The notes under the pieces were generated by a model. That model had not been told where the DNA came from and did not search any database. It saw only the letters and a list, made by a program, of their open reading frames with translations. Shown piece by piece: positions 1 to 56,032 of a stretch of DNA of 64,000 nt. The DNA is taken from positions 1 to 64,000 of the forward strand of contig JAHBUC010000007.1 in NCBI GenBank assembly GCA_019638275.1. Reading direction: 5' to 3'. Position 1 is the stretch's first letter, and each line of letters opens with the position of its first letter. This DNA comes from Cyclobacteriaceae bacterium. Its GTDB lineage: Bacteria > Bacteroidota > Bacteroidia > Cytophagales > Cyclobacteriaceae. The translations under genes and the position numbers were made by a program.

Positions 1-328
1 AGATGACCTTTGCAGTTGGGTTGTTTCGATTATCGAAGTCACCGAATGTTGTAACTGGTTCAAGTGGAAATTCAAGTTGGATTTTTAGAAGGAGGTCATA
101 CTTAATTAATAATTTCACTAAGCCTACTACTGTCATAATTTCTTCAAAGACTTGAGACATGTCATTAATCTTGCTTGAGTAAAATATTTTTACGTCTCTA
201 GTTTCGTGAAATATCGCAAGTTTTACATTGGCTCTAAAGAAGTCTGAAAACAAGTCACGAAAGCCAAAAGCATCCTTGTCGACTATTTTAGTTATTAATA
301 TTTTCTCCTTTTTGTTAAGCTGTCTCAT
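1..328 (-). CDS. Hypothetical protein, 3' end outside the window (cassette gene 1)
   Basis: An open frame runs without a stop from an ATG at 328 down to the window edge, about 109 codons, with the C-terminus missing. I recognise no family. The protein is rich in Lys, Phe and Ile and has no signal peptide. The start lies only 8 bp after the GTTGGCA end of the attC-like palindrome at 337-507, as expected for an integron-type cassette with almost no 5' leader. Base composition is AT-rich, like the next two genes and unlike the core genes from 1.8 kb on. Function unknown. Confidence 0.6.
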   Translation of the reverse strand, partial: MRQLNKKEKILITKIVDKDAFGFRDLFSDFFRANVKLAIFHETRDVKIFYSSKINDMSQVFEEIMTVVGLVKLLIKYDLLLKIQLEFPLEPVTTFGDFDNRNNPTAKVI

Positions 329-336
329 GCAATTGG

Positions 337-507
337 TGCCAACGTTTGTGTTTATGCAGTGTGGGGAATAGGAGGGCTTAAAAATGGAGCGAAGCGGAAT
401 GTTAAGCGCGACTTGCTCCGCAACTGTCCGCCTATAGCGGACTAAATTAAGAAATGAATTTGAATTAGCACACCGAACCCCGCAATTAGATAAACACAGT
501 GTTGGGT
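337..507 (-). repeat. attC-like recombination site A (imperfect palindrome, 171 bp)
   Basis: The outer arms are inverted repeats. TGCCAACGTTTGTGTTTAT on the left pairs with ATAAACACAGTGTTGGGTGC on the right, followed inward by GTGGGG against CCCCGC, with unpaired bases between the boxes. Read on the minus strand, the element starts with ACCCAAC (fits RYYYAAC) 8 bp after the stop of the 516-1034 gene and ends with GTTGGCA 8 bp before the next start codon. The middle carries a TTAAAAATGGAGCGAAGCGG block related to sites B and F. This matches the layout of integron attC sites; the assignment is inference. Confidence 0.65.
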
Positions 508-515
508 GCTGTTAC

Positions 516-1034
516 CTAACACGGATAATCTATCGCCCAGCTTTGTAGGAAACTTGTATAGCATTCATTTGTCCACCTCTCAATAATGTGCTTGAACAAT
601 TCGAGATACATCTCACGTGGTAAAGTTTCAATATTTTCTCTAATAAATTTTAGGTCTTGGTCAAAGTAAAATTCTATGTCCTTAGTTGGGTACTTAGGTT
701 TATGGAGCTCTATTACAGTTACTTTGAGTTTTTCCAAGAGTCCAATTAAGTCGTCATTGTCTGACTGTGGCGAAATGACTTTTATCAAACTGTCCTTTGT
801 TATGGATATTTGATTCAGTTTTTGAAACAAATCTTTAATCTCGTTATTGTCTTTTAATGAGTCTGAATTTGATTCCATTCTAATTCCCATTCGAATACAA
901 TCAAGTATTCTATTATTCTTTTGTTCATACTCAAGTCTTGAGTCGTTTAATTCTGAGTCAATAAGAATAAATTTTTTGTCATTCGTACTACATTGTCCAA
1001 AGAAGAGTAATAAAACTATTATAGTATTTCTCAT
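516..1034 (-). CDS. Putative lipoprotein of unknown function (cassette gene 2)
   Basis: 172 residues. The N-terminus MRNTIIVLLLFFGQC looks like a lipoprotein signal with the lipidated Cys at residue 15, so the product is probably an envelope lipoprotein. The rest is charged and mostly helical with no family I know. The ATG lies 17 bp after the GTTGGGT core of site B and the stop lies 8 bp before site A, so the gene fills the space between two attC-like sites exactly. AT-rich compared with core genes, which fits recent transfer. No promoter is visible; any expression would have to come from upstream. Confidence 0.7.
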   Translation of the reverse strand: MRNTIIVLLLFFGQCSTNDKKFILIDSELNDSRLEYEQKNNRILDCIRMGIRMESNSDSLKDNNEIKDLFQKLNQISITKDSLIKVISPQSDNDDLIGLLEKLKVTVIELHKPKYPTKDIEFYFDQDLKFIRENIETLPREMYLELFKHIIERWTNECYTSFLQSWAIDYPC

Positions 1035-1051
1035 TGTCGAAAGGTAATTGC

Positions 1052-1223
1052 ACCCAACGTTTGGGTTTGGGCAGTGGCGGGCTTAGGAGGCCTTAGCAAT
1101 GGAGCATCGCGGAATGCTAAGGCCGACAAGGTCGTCACAGTCCCCCGTGGGCAAACGTTGTAGCGAAGATAAAAACTTTATACATATACATCACCCCGCC
1201 ATTGACCAAACCTGGTGTTGGGC
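1052..1223 (-). repeat. attC-like recombination site B (imperfect palindrome, 172 bp)
   Basis: The best-formed site of the set. On the plus strand it opens with ACCCAAC (RYYYAAC) and closes with GTTGGGC (GTTRRRY). The arms CCCAACgtTTGGGTTTGG and CCAAACCTGGTGTTGGG pair, as do the inner boxes TGGCGGG and CCCGCCA, with an unpaired 4-base spacer (gcag against tcaa). The centre holds a second hairpin, GGCCTTAGCA against TGCTAAGGCC, around a GGAGCATCGCGG loop. The same centre recurs in site F at 55.3 kb. Confidence 0.72.
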
Positions 1224-1350
1224 GCTGGCCGTTTTGTCGACCGTTTATTTTTATAAGTCGTTGTCGGTTAGTCAAATCTTTTTAGCAAAACGTTGTTAAG
1301 TCCAGCCTTTACTTTATGGTCAAATGAACAGTGAATGCTTACTTTTGATT

Positions 1351-1701
1351 TTATGGACATGTGTCACACTTTAAGAAACCATATTTTAGTATTGTAGAAA
1401 CAGTAGTTAAACAAATCACTATCAGCCCGAGTAGCAAAAGTGTCAACGGTGCTGAAATTATTATTTTCCAGGTTAACCCAGTCTTTATTGTAAGGAAAAC
1501 TATCGTAAATACAAGGAGAATTACTAGGCACAACAAAAGTATTAGTATTAGATAAACTATGTCGGGATAGTATGTCCCTATGTAAGTAAATGTCATTGTC
1601 AGTATGGTACCTGCAATTGTTGTCACGGCACCAAAGGAAATAGCTTGGTTCGGTGTAGAAAATTTTACGCTGTACCTTATCTTGTCAATCGACCTTGTCA
1701 T
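1351..1701 (-). CDS. Small membrane protein of unknown function (cassette gene 3)
   Basis: 116 residues with about three hydrophobic segments (roughly residues 20-42, 48-70 and 80-103), so an inner-membrane protein with few soluble parts. No family recognised. The C-terminus has a CDTC motif that could bind metal or form a disulphide, but nothing else supports that. Its ATG lies about 37 bp after a lone GTTGGGCGC half-site at 1738-1746 and its stop lies 127 bp before site B, so it looks like the first cassette of this array. AT-rich. Confidence 0.6.
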   Translation of the reverse strand: MTRSIDKIRYSVKFSTPNQAISFGAVTTIAGTILTMTFTYIGTYYPDIVYLILILLLCLVILLVFTIVFLTIKTGLTWKIIISAPLTLLLLGLIVICLTTVSTILKYGFLKCDTCP

Positions 1702-1735
1702 AATCTACTCAAAATGTCAATCTGAATCTCACGGC

Positions 1736-1746
1736 TTGCGCCCAAC
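1736..1746 (-). repeat. Half-site of attC type bordering cassette array 1
   Basis: Reads GTTGGGCGCAA on the minus strand, matching the GTTRRRY end of sites A and B, but no inverted partner is found within the next 200 bp upstream. It marks the upstream edge of the array. The sequence just before it (ATGTATTCGGAT on the minus strand) resembles the flank of the equivalent half-site at 20181-20190. Confidence 0.45.
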
Positions 1747-1804
1747 ATCCGAATACATGCAATTGCACATACCTCGCTTATAAAAGTACTAAAATTCCTA
1801 CGCT

Positions 1805-17767: not shown

Positions 17768-17848
17768 TTATTTATATCGGGTACTGGCAATAGCCTGTTT
17801 ATATTTTTCGTACTCCTCTCTTGTAAACCTATGGCTGCTTCTTGATCC
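17768..17848 (-). pseudogene. 3' remnant of an unidentified gene cut by cassette insertion
   Basis: Read on the minus strand right after the GTTGGATC end of site D, an open frame of 26 codons ends in TAA at 17768 and gives GSRSSHRFTREEYEKYKQ followed by AIASTRYK. The composition is that of a real protein C-terminus (regular helix, charged). No start codon exists within it, and its upstream part would lie where the palindrome now is. I infer that a cassette-type insertion removed or displaced the front of this gene. It could also be chance coding-like sequence. Confidence 0.4.
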
Positions 17849-17980
17849 AACAACGGTTTGGGTTTGTTTAGTGGCGGATAAATCCGGAGGATTTGTCCGC
17901 TACACGAATATAAATAAACTTGCTGACACTACAGGCGACTGTGTCGCCCGCCATTAAACAAACCCGGTGTTGCCGCCAGC
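17844..17980 (-). repeat. attC-like recombination site D (137 bp)
   Basis: Left arm CCAACAACGGTTTGGGTTTG, right arm CAAACCCGGTGTTGCCGCC; inner boxes TTTAGTGGCGG and CCGCCATTAAA pair. On the minus strand it begins with GGCGGCAACACCGGG 20 bp after the stop of the 18002-20158 gene and ends with GTTGGATC. The interior is of a second type, with an ATAAATCCGGAGGATTTGTCCGC hairpin-like block and a GGCGACTGTGTCGCC hairpin, shared with site E at 54.5 kb and different from A, B and F. Confidence 0.65.
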
Positions 17981-18001: not shown

Positions 18002-20158
18002 TTACTTTGAAGGATTAGTTACCACAATTCTAAAATAGTTGGTGCCACTCTTGTTTTCAATCCTCATAATATGGATTCCTTGCTGAAGACCACTAATGTC
18101 TATTTGACTCTGTCCAGTTACTGTCTTTTTTGTGAGGGATCGGCCGTCTAAAGAGTAAATTAGGATATCAGCAGAAGTATCCCCAGAATCAACATACAAG
18201 GTATGTCTAGCTGGATTAGGCCAAAACAGTACTTGAGGTATTTTGTTTTTTTCAATACTTGTAACTAATTCATCAATCTCAATAATAAGTTCATTTGAGT
18301 TGAAGATGCAGTCATTCTCTGCTTGTATTTGCAAATAATAGAGACCAGATTGATCTACTTTTAAGTTCGGATGAGAGGTAGTCGTAAATATCTCATTGTC
18401 TTTAAACCAGGTATAGGCCGTGACTCCTTGTAAAGGATTCAAGTATATGGTACCGTTATTGTAATAAATTTCTGGCTTTAGTTCAAAGATATCGAAGGTA
18501 AAGCTTCTGGAGTAGGAGCGAGTTAGATTATCAACCAATGATAGATTTAGCGTCTTTTCGCCACCATTATCAAATGTGTGAGTGAAATTAGGTTCTGTGT
18601 AATCCTCGGCTTCTATGGCTATTGTGAATTCATGAATTGTTGAGGTATATGTAAAATCAAAGAATTTGAATTCAAATGATATTGGAATGCCCGAGCATGT
18701 TCGATCAGTTTCAAAATAAATTGATTTGGAACTCAATTTTGAGACTAATGCATCACCTCTAAAAAATGAACAACCATTTGCAACAAAGGTCTCACCAAAG
18801 ATATTTGCCGTACAACCCCAGGCTCCACTCCAATAGATGTTCCCGGCATTGTCTATTTCAAGATCTAATCCCATACCAACATTTCCATGAAATTGGGCCC
18901 ATTGTATTTTGTCTTGATTGAATTTAATAAGAAACCATTTCTCAACTGAACTTTGTACCATTATATCCTCATACTGAAATATTTCGTTAGGAATTAGTCC
19001 GCCCAAAAGGTATAGATTACCTTCTTTATCTATATCTACATCCGCAATTGGTGAATTTGCTGTATAGAGATCATATGCTATTTGAAAAGTACCATCCAAT
19101 GCAAATTCTGTAGCAATAATGTATTGTGATACAGGAAAATCATTGATTTCAAAAGTAATACCGGGGCTATGATTTATAGCGATAATTCCAACGCTCTCAC
19201 TGCGTTGAAGCATTTTTATTGGGAAAATGGTTGTTTGATTTGGGCTGTCAATACTCTTAATCCAATCAATCGTACCAGTGGAAGTGTGTTTAACAAGGAA
19301 CATTGATCCTGTTGGGCTATAAAGAGAATCGTTTTCAGAAAAATAAATGCCTTCTTCATAGTATCCGCAAAAGTAAATTGATTCATCTTCATCAATTAAA
19401 AAGTCTACAGCTGTATGGTACCTTATTGGTAAGCTGAATGATGATGGATAATAAGTAAGTTTTCGTAACCAAGAGATATTCCCTGATTCATCAAAATGTG
19501 TCAAAAAGGGATTTCCGTTGGTAAATACAAATGTGGAATTATCAATAAAGACCGAAGAATCACTATAGTTATAGTACATGTCAGCTAATACAATAATATC
19601 ATTGCTTTTAGTGACTTCAATTTTTATGGGAAATATTTCAGATCCACTGAGGAATGCTTTAGACCAAAGGAATTCTCCAAGGGAGTCGTATTTAACAAGT
19701 ATTGTACTTGGCAGGGAATGTGGATCGCTTGAATTATAGGAACTTACTACTGTGTTATTAAAATTGAGCGTTCCCTTAAAGGAATAGAGTAGATAAATAT
19801 TACCTTTTTTATCTATTTCAATACATTTAGGGTCTGCATAACCGTCTTGGACGATTGATCTGTGGAATAGAATCTTACCGTTCTCATCCATTTTGGTAAA
19901 ATATGTAGTTGAATTGAGGTTATTGTATCGATCAATTTTAACTGTATCGATATATCCATCTTCCGTTTGAAATATTGGATCATATAGACTGAGCACTCCC
20001 GTTGAATAAATGTTGCCTCTATTGTCTGGCTTTATTATTGGTTTTGATTCTGTATGAGGCCCCTTGATAATCGTGAACCAATCTGGTTGCAGATCCTGAG
20101 ACAGAACGGGATTCATTGAAACGATCAATATAATTAAGTACTTAATTAGTCCTCTCAT
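18002..20158 (-). CDS. Large secreted protein with type IX secretion (type A) C-terminal domain, in a cassette
   Basis: 718 residues. Signal peptide 1-20 (MRGLIKYLIILIVSMNPVLSQ), then about 450 residues of repeated beta blades with G-NIY-GxxxG patterns (SBBP-like propeller), a PKD/Ig-like part, and a Por secretion tail from about 640 (FWPNPARHTLYVDSG, ending IMRIENKSGTNYFRIVV). The tail directs export through T9SS. The ATG lies 23 bp after the GTTGCCGCCA half-site and the stop 20 bp before site D, so this one long gene has the position of a cassette gene. AT-rich compared with neighbours, unusually large for a cassette. Confidence 0.85.
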   Translation of the reverse strand: MRGLIKYLIILIVSMNPVLSQDLQPDWFTIIKGPHTESKPIIKPDNRGNIYSTGVLSLYDPIFQTEDGYIDTVKIDRYNNLNSTTYFTKMDENGKILFHRSIVQDGYADPKCIEIDKKGNIYLLYSFKGTLNFNNTVVSSYNSSDPHSLPSTILVKYDSLGEFLWSKAFLSGSEIFPIKIEVTKSNDIIVLADMYYNYSDSSVFIDNSTFVFTNGNPFLTHFDESGNISWLRKLTYYPSSFSLPIRYHTAVDFLIDEDESIYFCGYYEEGIYFSENDSLYSPTGSMFLVKHTSTGTIDWIKSIDSPNQTTIFPIKMLQRSESVGIIAINHSPGITFEINDFPVSQYIIATEFALDGTFQIAYDLYTANSPIADVDIDKEGNLYLLGGLIPNEIFQYEDIMVQSSVEKWFLIKFNQDKIQWAQFHGNVGMGLDLEIDNAGNIYWSGAWGCTANIFGETFVANGCSFFRGDALVSKLSSKSIYFETDRTCSGIPISFEFKFFDFTYTSTIHEFTIAIEAEDYTEPNFTHTFDNGGEKTLNLSLVDNLTRSYSRSFTFDIFELKPEIYYNNGTIYLNPLQGVTAYTWFKDNEIFTTTSHPNLKVDQSGLYYLQIQAENDCIFNSNELIIEIDELVTSIEKNKIPQVLFWPNPARHTLYVDSGDTSADILIYSLDGRSLTKKTVTGQSQIDISGLQQGIHIMRIENKSGTNYFRIVVTNPSK

Positions 20159-53771: not shown

Positions 53772-54491
53772 TTATCTACCGTTTATTTTCCAATTACTGG
53801 GTGGTATCAAACTACAATTTATTGGAGATACTTCATATTCATCTCCAATTTGTCTATCGGGTTTGTGTCGGGATTTTTGTTCAAGACTAATAAGTCGAAC
53901 AATAAGTTTTTCAGTACTATGAGCTTTCACAATTGCTATACCTCGTAAGCTTGACGCGTAATTTTTTTTAAAGGCAGCAAATACACTCACAACAATGGTA
54001 TCTCCAATAGGGAAGTATTTCATCAACTCTTCTACAGACGTAAAACTATCATGATCTCTTTTTAAGTCAGGGGCGGAAAAACCATCTTGCGGGGCTGTTT
54101 GCCAAAATGTTCTATATTTTATTGCTTCTTCCTTAATATTTAAAGGGAGTCCATTTAAATGTCGATGGTATGATTTTAGAATGATTGCAGACATATCGTC
54201 TGGATGCACGAAACCTGAGTCAAGAAGACTTTTTTTTAGATCACTATTTTTCCAGAGGCCCCAATTGTTTCGTATCCACATACCGAAACCATGATGAAGT
54301 CGTCCAGTGGAAATGTCCTCTGGCAAAGTTTTGAAGGTATACTTAGAGGTATCATCAAATATCTTGTCAAGATAGTCCCAGCATTGAGTTAGAGTTTTAG
54401 GCTTCCCAGTAAGGTTGTTGCTTTCTTGGCTCCAAACCGTGGACATAGAAAGACAAAAAAGTAAAAGTACTACAGGATTTTTATGTGTCAC
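53772..54491 (-). CDS. Secreted DUF6794-domain protein (cassette gene, locus 3)
   Basis: 239 residues. Signal peptide MTHKNPVVLLLFCLSMSTVWSQ, then DUF6794 (about 32-130: LTQCWDYLDKIF, GFGMWIRNNWGLW, HPDDMSAIILKSYHRHLNG). The C-terminal third is uncharacterised. The start codon is GTG at 54491 and falls at the very edge of site E, where a GTT core would be expected. The intact signal peptide supports it. It is the last gene of the array; no site follows its stop. Confidence 0.8.
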   Translation of the reverse strand: MTHKNPVVLLLFCLSMSTVWSQESNNLTGKPKTLTQCWDYLDKIFDDTSKYTFKTLPEDISTGRLHHGFGMWIRNNWGLWKNSDLKKSLLDSGFVHPDDMSAIILKSYHRHLNGLPLNIKEEAIKYRTFWQTAPQDGFSAPDLKRDHDSFTSVEELMKYFPIGDTIVVSVFAAFKKNYASSLRGIAIVKAHSTEKLIVRLISLEQKSRHKPDRQIGDEYEVSPINCSLIPPSNWKINGR

Positions 54492-54617
54492 TGTTTGGGT
54501 TTGTTTAATTGGCGGTAAAACCTTCGGATTTGTCCGCCTACACGAATATAAATAAACCTGTTGATACTACAGACGACACGGTCGCCCGCCATTAAACAAA
54601 CCCGGTGTTAGCGGCAG
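54491..54617 (-). repeat. attC-like recombination site E (127 bp, one end decayed)
   Basis: Arms TTTGGGTTTGTTTAATTGGCGG and CCGCCATTAAACAAACCC pair almost perfectly. The gene-side end GTTAGCGGC is intact on the plus strand (54607-54615), but the far end lacks the GTTGG core (it reads AAACAGTGAC on the minus strand). The interior resembles site D. The stop codon of the 54592 gene lies inside the arm, so that gene's last eight residues (PAANTGFV) are coded by the site. Confidence 0.6.
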
Positions 54618-55326
54618 GCTTTTCTGTGTCTGGTTTAATTACGTCTTCAAAGAAAATTAGATTATTAATGATTTGCCCTGTTATAACATCAACTGTCGCG
54701 ACATTTCTTCCATCAATTACTCCAAATGTGTCTGTATTTATCCACTTACAAGTCTTAGCAATTATTTTTATTGGGTCAAGCGGATAAGTATTTCTCTTGT
54801 CTATTAATTTAAATTCCTTGGTGTCATTTTGACTTTTGATAAGAACATAAAGTATTGACCTTTCTGTTGTCTTTATGATTTTCGGCTGGGCTGATATTTT
54901 TTTATTTCTTGATAATATAGGTTTGAATGGTACTTCGTATTGAAAATTACATTTTAGAATTTCATTATATGCATTTAAGAAAATCCTATTGTCCCATTTC
55001 TCGAAATCACCTATCTCAATAATCGAGTTATGAAGTATTTCGAGTATTTTAAGCAGTCTTTTTTCCTTGTTCAGTGTAATGAATCCATTGTCATTGAATT
55101 CAGTGTCATATATACAGATTGAACCAATAAACGTAGGCTTACTATAGACCTTTCGATTATTGAATTGAATACGAATAGCTGAAGTCTTAGGTGGTTTGTA
55201 TCCGTCAAGTTTTGTCAAATATAAGTCTGCTACAAAATTAAATTCGTATCTGAATGTCCATTGCTCAGGAGGCATTGGTATTTCTGTTCCATAGTAGTAT
55301 ATAGATATGTCAGATAGTCGTCTCAT
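54592..55326 (-). CDS. Hypothetical protein (cassette gene, locus 3)
   Basis: 244 residues, no signal peptide, Ile/Lys/Asn-rich, AT-rich coding. No family recognised. The ATG lies 9 bp after the GTTAGCGGC end of site F. The C-terminal end runs into site E, as happens with integron cassette genes. The frame is intact, so it may be functional. Confidence 0.65.
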   Translation of the reverse strand: MRRLSDISIYYYGTEIPMPPEQWTFRYEFNFVADLYLTKLDGYKPPKTSAIRIQFNNRKVYSKPTFIGSICIYDTEFNDNGFITLNKEKRLLKILEILHNSIIEIGDFEKWDNRIFLNAYNEILKCNFQYEVPFKPILSRNKKISAQPKIIKTTERSILYVLIKSQNDTKEFKLIDKRNTYPLDPIKIIAKTCKWINTDTFGVIDGRNVATVDVITGQIINNLIFFEDVIKPDTEKPAANTGFV

Positions 55327-55332
55327 AAGCTT

Positions 55333-55505
55333 GCCGCTAACGTCTGTGCTTGTGACGGGCGGGGTTTAGGAGGCCTTAGCAATGGAGCGAAGCGAAATGC
55401 TAAGGCCGACCAGTTGTAACCTGTCCCCCGTGACAATGCACATAAAGATAACGATAGTTATGAGGACACCGAACCCCCGTCTGGCACAAGCATTTTGTTG
55501 GCGGC
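55333..55505 (-). repeat. attC-like recombination site F (173 bp)
   Basis: Left box GCCGCTAAC with GTCTGTGCTTGTGACGGGCGGGG, right box ACCGAACCCCCGTCTGGCAC with GTTGGCGGC. The centre (TTAGGAGGCCTTAGCAATGG, then AATGCTAAGGCCGAC) is almost identical to that of site B 54 kb away, including the GGCCTTAGCA/TGCTAAGGCC hairpin. Confidence 0.68.
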
Positions 55506-55521
55506 TGGCACCAGTTCAAAA

Positions 55522-56007
55522 TTAATAAACCCCGGGTCTTACGTGTCCGTCATTGTCGGGTATGTACGCGTTTATCGTCCCGTGTTCTGATGTCCAGTCA
55601 GGCTCTACTATAATACTGAGTTTGTGTCCGAGTCTGTCGGCTATTTCGTTTTCCAATTCGTCCCAAGTATCTATGTAGAACCAGTCGTGTCTAAAGTCAT
55701 TTAGCTCCCAAATTCCTAGCCAAGGAGTGTCAGATTTTTTATTCCATTTTTTCCGGAGTTCTTGAATTAGATTTTTGTCGGAAAGTCCATGAATTATGTA
55801 TTGAAACTCAAAAAACAAAATCACCGAGTCTTTTTCCCTTCCTTTTTTTAATAGTTCCAGAAAGTCGGTTTTTGCTCGAATTATTTTGAAGTTTTTGTCG
55901 CCAGCTGCGTAAGCGTGTCGAATACAAATAAGAAGCTCTCCTTTATTGGCAAGTATGTCAAGTCCTGCGTTTATAAATTCTAAGTCGGTCGCTTTTTCGA
56001 ATTCCAT
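55522..56007 (-). CDS. Hypothetical protein (cassette gene, locus 3)
   Basis: 161 residues, soluble, acidic, no signal peptide. No family recognised; a run of Trp/Tyr/Asp residues in the second half (PWLGIWELNDFRHDWFYIDTWDELE). The stop lies 16 bp before site F and the ATG 17 bp after the lone GTTGGCGGC half-site at 56024-56032, again filling one cassette. Confidence 0.68.
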   Translation of the reverse strand: MEFEKATDLEFINAGLDILANKGELLICIRHAYAAGDKNFKIIRAKTDFLELLKKGREKDSVILFFEFQYIIHGLSDKNLIQELRKKWNKKSDTPWLGIWELNDFRHDWFYIDTWDELENEIADRLGHKLSIIVEPDWTSEHGTINAYIPDNDGHVRPGVY

Positions 56008-56023
56008 AAAAAGTTATGTGCTT

Positions 56024-56032
56024 GCCGCCAAC
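56024..56032 (-). repeat. attC-type half-site bordering cassette locus 3
   Basis: Reads GTTGGCGGC on the minus strand, identical to the core end of site F, followed by AAGCACATAAC before the first gene. No inverted partner upstream. The flank TAATGATTATATACTAAA on its upstream side resembles the flanks of the other two half-sites only weakly. Confidence 0.45.

Follow-up and report, generated by a model that had tools for sequence, protein, structure and literature searches.

The first 1.75 kb of the window, by which we mean the whole stretch of 64,000 nucleotides analyzed here, contain ORFs at 2–328, 516–1034, and 1351–1701, all on the minus strand. An earlier note on this DNA had described an integron-like cassette array in which three minus-strand genes alternate with two attC-like palindromes. 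Genes and palindromes are real, as judged by the ORF list, the predicted folds, and a covariance model that places the palindromes at 335–509 and 1050–1225. The cassette borders can be read from the sequence as G|TT at 1746|1745, 1058|1057, and 343|342, which gives the following features:

1746–1801, minus strand: attI-like left flank, a conserved leader ending ...GTGCAATTGCATGTATTCGGATG|TT
1058–1745, minus strand: cassette 1, ending in site B; gene 1351–1701, 116 aa, no Pfam match
1050–1225, minus strand: site B, attC-like; covariance model E=3.8e-29
343–1057, minus strand: cassette 2, ending in site A; gene 516–1034, 172 aa, no Pfam match
335–509, minus strand: site A, attC-like; covariance model E=1.4e-19
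1–342, minus strand: cassette 3, truncated by the contig end; gene <1–328

The start codons lie near a GTT core as the note had claimed, although at ~12 and ~21 nt from the core TT rather than at 8 and 17, and the stop at 516 is 6 nt from the R'' arm and not 8 bp. The window is contig C19 from its base 1, and the array runs off the assembly, like repeat arrays. When we searched positions 1–1800 at the DNA level against 17 genomes of the genus, only sites A and B matched, in more than 60 places, and the cassette genes had no match elsewhere. An Rfam scan of the window returned tRNA only.

Sites A and B fold into L stems of 16–17 bp plus R arms. They align with 15 further copies from the genome (17 in total), and 13 of the 16 stem pairs show double compensatory changes; the palindromes thus pass the fold test that had been proposed for them, with covariation in the stems. 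Genome-wide, the covariance model finds ~45 copies, many of them clustered on contigs C18, C3, C17, C2, and C19, and close copies of site B (83–96%) occur elsewhere in the genome. The sites have AAC...GTT cores, an imperfect palindrome, and a G|TT exchange point. The L stems are gapless over 17 nt in ~227 of 242 distinct sites, so that the extrahelical base of a folded attC stem is absent, and an A.C pair (G.T on the bottom strand) occupies position 11 or 12 in ~214 of 237. For 194 of 205 sites the predicted fold of the bottom strand is the more stable one, and the free-cassette (circular) form is predicted to be 10 kcal/mol more stable on average than the array form.

A cassette unit begins with the TT of one GTT core and ends with the G of the following one. 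We compared the arms of 247 such units from the genome itself and four relatives and found that the opening ~16 nt of a unit are reverse-complementary to its own closing ~16 nt and not to those of its neighbor. The own-arm match per position is 93–98% at positions 4–9 and 84–92% at positions 12–16, and the two flanks (R'' and R') of a single array site match at the shuffled level only. At position 11, A stands against C on the top strand, equal to T against G on the bottom strand, in 216 of 221 cases. In the window, the own-arm inverted repeats lie at 1216–1232/1731–1747 in cassette 1 and at 501–517/1042–1058 in cassette 2, both at 88%. Arms 500–1000 bp apart can stay complementary only if they meet, and it is in the free, circular cassette that they do. 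The longest ORF runs in the direction of the array in 217 of the 247 cassettes, and cassettes at 86–98% nucleotide identity are found in different species. In many pairs of shared cassettes the right-hand junction is within a few nucleotides of G|TT; other pairs overrun this point or stop short of it because the neighboring sites are alike or of another type. In one relative (G001), several near-identical 468-bp cassettes stand in tandem and are repeated along the array (L109, G001:C1:2870332-2872000 and later).

The array at the start of the window was inserted between 1746 and 1745, 62 bp past a conserved host gene (1805–2446). In G001 this host gene is followed, again after 62 bp, by the same flank, with another cassette to its right. 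Among sister species, the spot holds different cassettes in G001, G015, and G004 and appears empty in G016 and G009; the fixed synteny that would have spoken against mobility did not occur. The left flank resembles attI (CAATAGATAAACACAGCTG|TT in G015). The same chromosomal spot with varying cassettes and an attI-like flank makes the window array a secondary, integrase-less insertion point. Three further sites, not listed in the earlier note, lie in the window, at 17846–17977, 54484–54615, and 55333–55505, with these features:

55341–56031, minus strand: cassette 4, of a second cluster; gene 55522–56007; inserted after an attI-like AT-rich flank at 56032
55333–55505, minus strand: site of cassette 4; covariance model E=2e-22
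54491–55340, minus strand: cassette 5; gene 54592–55326; site 54484–54615, covariance model E=2.4e-13
17846–17977, minus strand: lone attC-like site downstream of a 718-aa gene (18002–20158); covariance model E=1.1e-14

The start arm of cassette 4, GTTGGCGGCAAGCAC, compares with its own end arm (reverse complement) GTTGGCGGCTGGCAC, and that of cassette 5, GTTAGCGGCAAGCTT, with GTTAGCGGCAGGCTT. The R' of the cassette 5 site is degenerate, with CAG|TG in place of CG|TT. Positions 54484–56031 on the minus strand thus form a second integrase-less cluster of two cassettes behind an attI-like AT-rich flank. The lone site at 17846–17977, also on the minus strand, has no clear upstream border.

The earlier note had found no integrase, which holds for the window and not for the genome: integrases lie on another contig, one of them heading the main array and the other, which is broken, beside a further array. 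The first is

C18:51829-53061 (L031:6830-8140), strand of the C18 array: IntI-like integrase of the genome itself, just upstream of the array

Its N-terminal domain is interrupted by an in-frame TAG near codon 29; the frame of its 313-residue core is intact, as are the integrases of its relatives. Immediately upstream of it is a tRNA-like sequence (L031). The second IntI-like integrase (L035:4918-6034, on G000:C18) is split into two frames beside an array that reaches the contig end. With a premature stop in one integrase and the other split, the cassettes of the window may have lost their mobility in this strain.

In four relatives within the Cyclobacteriaceae, arrays of 32–104 sites are headed by the same integrase, and within each array almost every site is on the same strand: 104 sites over 85 kb in G001 (all plus), 60 over 67 kb in G004 (all minus), 63 over 104 kb in G014 (60 plus), and 32 over 73 kb in G016 (all plus). 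In five genomes the integrase stop is followed by a conserved leader of ~110 bp and then, at G|TT, by a different first cassette; this attI ends in ...AAATATATTCAATAGCA.AA.CACAAA.G|TT or a near variant. At least three sites are present in each of the ten genomes with a close integrase, and some genomes of the same genus have sites and no close integrase. As intergenic palindromes in many copies, the sites could at first sight be dispersed repeats, such as terminators or REP-like elements, that flank orphan genes by chance. The strand uniformity of the long arrays, the attI junctions, the association with an integrase, and the different genes between similar sites all speak against this, and the G|TT-phased own-arm match refutes it; the palindromes bound genes, and hundreds of copies without a gene between them, which the note had named as a refuting case, did not occur. 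We give chance repeats a negligible likelihood.

The integrase differs from known integron integrases. Together with ~60 relatives, it has 15–21 residues where IntI1 and twelve IntI of the phylum have 58; the IntI patch (~40 residues, the I2 helix) is absent and the catalytic residues are intact. Its closest NCBIfam profile is the integron integrase TIGR02249, at 232.7 bits (below the cut-off of 265) vs. 173.3 for XerD, and the match skips positions 181–237. For the AlphaFold model of a relative (pLDDT 85), the best match in the PDB was 4a8e, an archaeal XerA (Z 21.1), with VchIntIA at Z 19.6. In a quick tree, the root of which is unsure, no patchless integrase falls within the single clade (SH-aLRT 98) that unites the 13 IntI. 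We considered whether the patchless type arose from IntI by recent loss of the patch, and this tree, with its unsure root, does not back that reading.

The closeness of the fold to XerA, the absence of I2, and a half-site that looks like an inverted-arm Xer-type core would fit a Xer- or Cre-like recombinase that acts on double-stranded cores, with the palindromes incidental or extruded as cruciforms. That reading has to contend with a complementarity of own arms that lie 500–1000 bp apart and meet only in the free cassette, a complementarity absent within array sites, as well as with stems that covary and a fixed A.C/G.T pair that makes sense only if the arms pair, and we regard it as improbable. 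The catalytic core without I2 is shared with XerA, XerC/D, and Xer-exploiting elements; unlike in Xer systems, there are multi-cassette arrays and folded attI/attC-like sites here.

Most of these integrases have an additional N-terminal domain of ~80 residues, with an invariant T..CWY in the closest set; it is missing in at least two array-linked integrases (L190 and L207). Its similarity to known domains is weak. Pfam HARP matched 4 of 23 sequences below the cut-off (E 0.0068 at best), the top Foldseek match was 4o66 at a weak E of 0.037, and a fold comparison by VIA, also weak, gave Z 6.6 over 56 residues to the XPB N terminus, and 4.0 to 4o66. DUF5710 matched the domain weakly in 9 of 23 sequences (alignment A6, L132:9929-10165). 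DNA structures are bound both by the HARP domain in SMARCAL1 and by the damage-recognition domain (DRD) in XPB. On these weak similarities, a HARP/XPB-DRD-like N-terminal domain may replace I2.

To see how far the association extends, one can turn to the 80 named loci with patchless integrases, where 56 of 56 covariance-model matches were on the integrase strand. A detector not trained on these sites found 66 in the 286 kb downstream of the integrases, a single one in the 635 kb upstream, and none in shuffles. Of the 36 patchless loci that extend more than 1.5 kb past the integrase on its downstream side, 27 have a site there. The combination of a patchless integrase and downstream sites occurs in Cytophagales, Flavobacteriales, Bacteroidales, Cloacimonadota, and others. 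In these FCB loci, too, the cassette arms were never matched at position 11.

An ordinary CALIN, in which a canonical IntI with a patch, since lost or located elsewhere, had moved the cassettes, would account for the integron-like architecture, and canonical IntI do occur in other classes of Bacteroidota, being present in 57 of 198 genomes of the phylum and nearly all of them outside this class. With that phylum search as the positive control, we found no canonical IntI at 1e-50 in the genome itself or in the relatives searched, and the array heads carry the patchless integrase instead. Moreover, sites beside patch-bearing IntI have a one-base bulge in 10 of 11 cases and the sites here do not, by which the CALIN explanation is already largely refuted and becomes highly improbable. 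Patch and extrahelical base, the latter being what I2 reads, thus go together: the canonical systems have both, and here neither is present. The earlier reading as an integron-like cassette array is strongly supported; judged by their sequence, the integrons here are not canonical, with no IntI patch in the integrase and no extrahelical base in the sites.

We put a probability of roughly 80% on the reading that positions 1–1.75 kb of the window hold integrase-less mobile cassettes at a secondary attI-like site and that an I2-less, IntI-like integrase exchanges their folded bottom strand at G|TT. The main platform of integrase, attI, and array would lie elsewhere in the genome, and the window cluster would belong to its system. 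From the comparisons above we infer that the integrase catalyzes the exchange on a single-stranded substrate, most likely by recombining, at G|TT, the folded bottom strand with attI or a further site. Once a cassette is free, its ~16-nt ends and the inner L arms would form two bulge-free half-sites, in each of which a near-invariant G.T wobble (top A.C) at position ~11 would replace the extrahelical bases. The wobble would set the strand choice, and the HARP/DRD-like N-terminal domain would help in recognizing the folded DNA. More tentatively, and with somewhat less than even odds, the system may represent a second, I2-independent route to single-strand cassette recombination that is Bacteroidota- or FCB-wide, with a HARP-like domain and a G.T wobble in each folded arm in place of I2 and the extrahelical bases and with the two ends of every cassette pairing over ~16 nt, and it could be a living relative of the postulated I2-less IntI ancestor.

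The closest known counterparts are sedentary chromosomal integrons such as the Vibrio superintegron, in which IntI acts with VCR/attC sites. They share with the system here long same-strand arrays with one gene per cassette, an attI with a G|TT junction beside the integrase, palindromic AAC...GTT sites, CALIN-like clusters at secondary sites, and cargo mostly of unknown function. Unlike in those integrons, the integrase here has no IntI patch or I2 helix, carries an extra N-terminal domain, and points into the array, and the sites have no extrahelical bases; their cassette-specific arms instead pair along ~16 nt, and position 11 holds a near-invariant wobble. The canonical integrons of other Bacteroidota classes and that of Salinibacter ruber M1 (PMC9024848) share the phylum and the combination of IntI and attC; unlike here, the IntI of those other classes keep the 58-residue patch region and the nearby sites are bulged.

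IntegronFinder 2.0 reported one complete integron in Bacteroidetes proper, in Salinibacter ruber (PMC9024848). Integron surveys seek patch-bearing IntI and find hardly any complete integrons in Bacteroidetes, and a large patchless class that recurs across the group could escape that criterion; we found no description of patchless integrons in the open-access literature, the scope of our search. A survey of tyrosine recombinases noted incomplete conservation of the IntI insertion in its integron-like subgroup. Escudero et al. (PMC7790495), who cite Messier and Roy 2001, state that cassettes cannot be captured without I2 and that this helix confers single-strand recombination. As I2 is described as necessary, an I2-free integrase that captures cassettes would contradict the current model, and the patchless class calls the rule that I2 is required for capture into question. 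The joint absence of patch and extrahelical base makes the I2 question testable, and the class would be a natural counterpart to laboratory-evolved IntI1 for studying the origin of single-strand recombination.

The cargo of the cassettes is diverse. We grouped 215 cassette ORFs into 166 clusters, 133 of them singletons and 14 found in two or more genomes. Among 130 cassette proteins searched with Pfam and PADLOC there were scattered families only and no common function, and scattered cargo families are usual for integron cassettes. The matches included SUKH, Fic, abhydrolase, and DUF families, with single matches to SIR2 and DISARM-like models.
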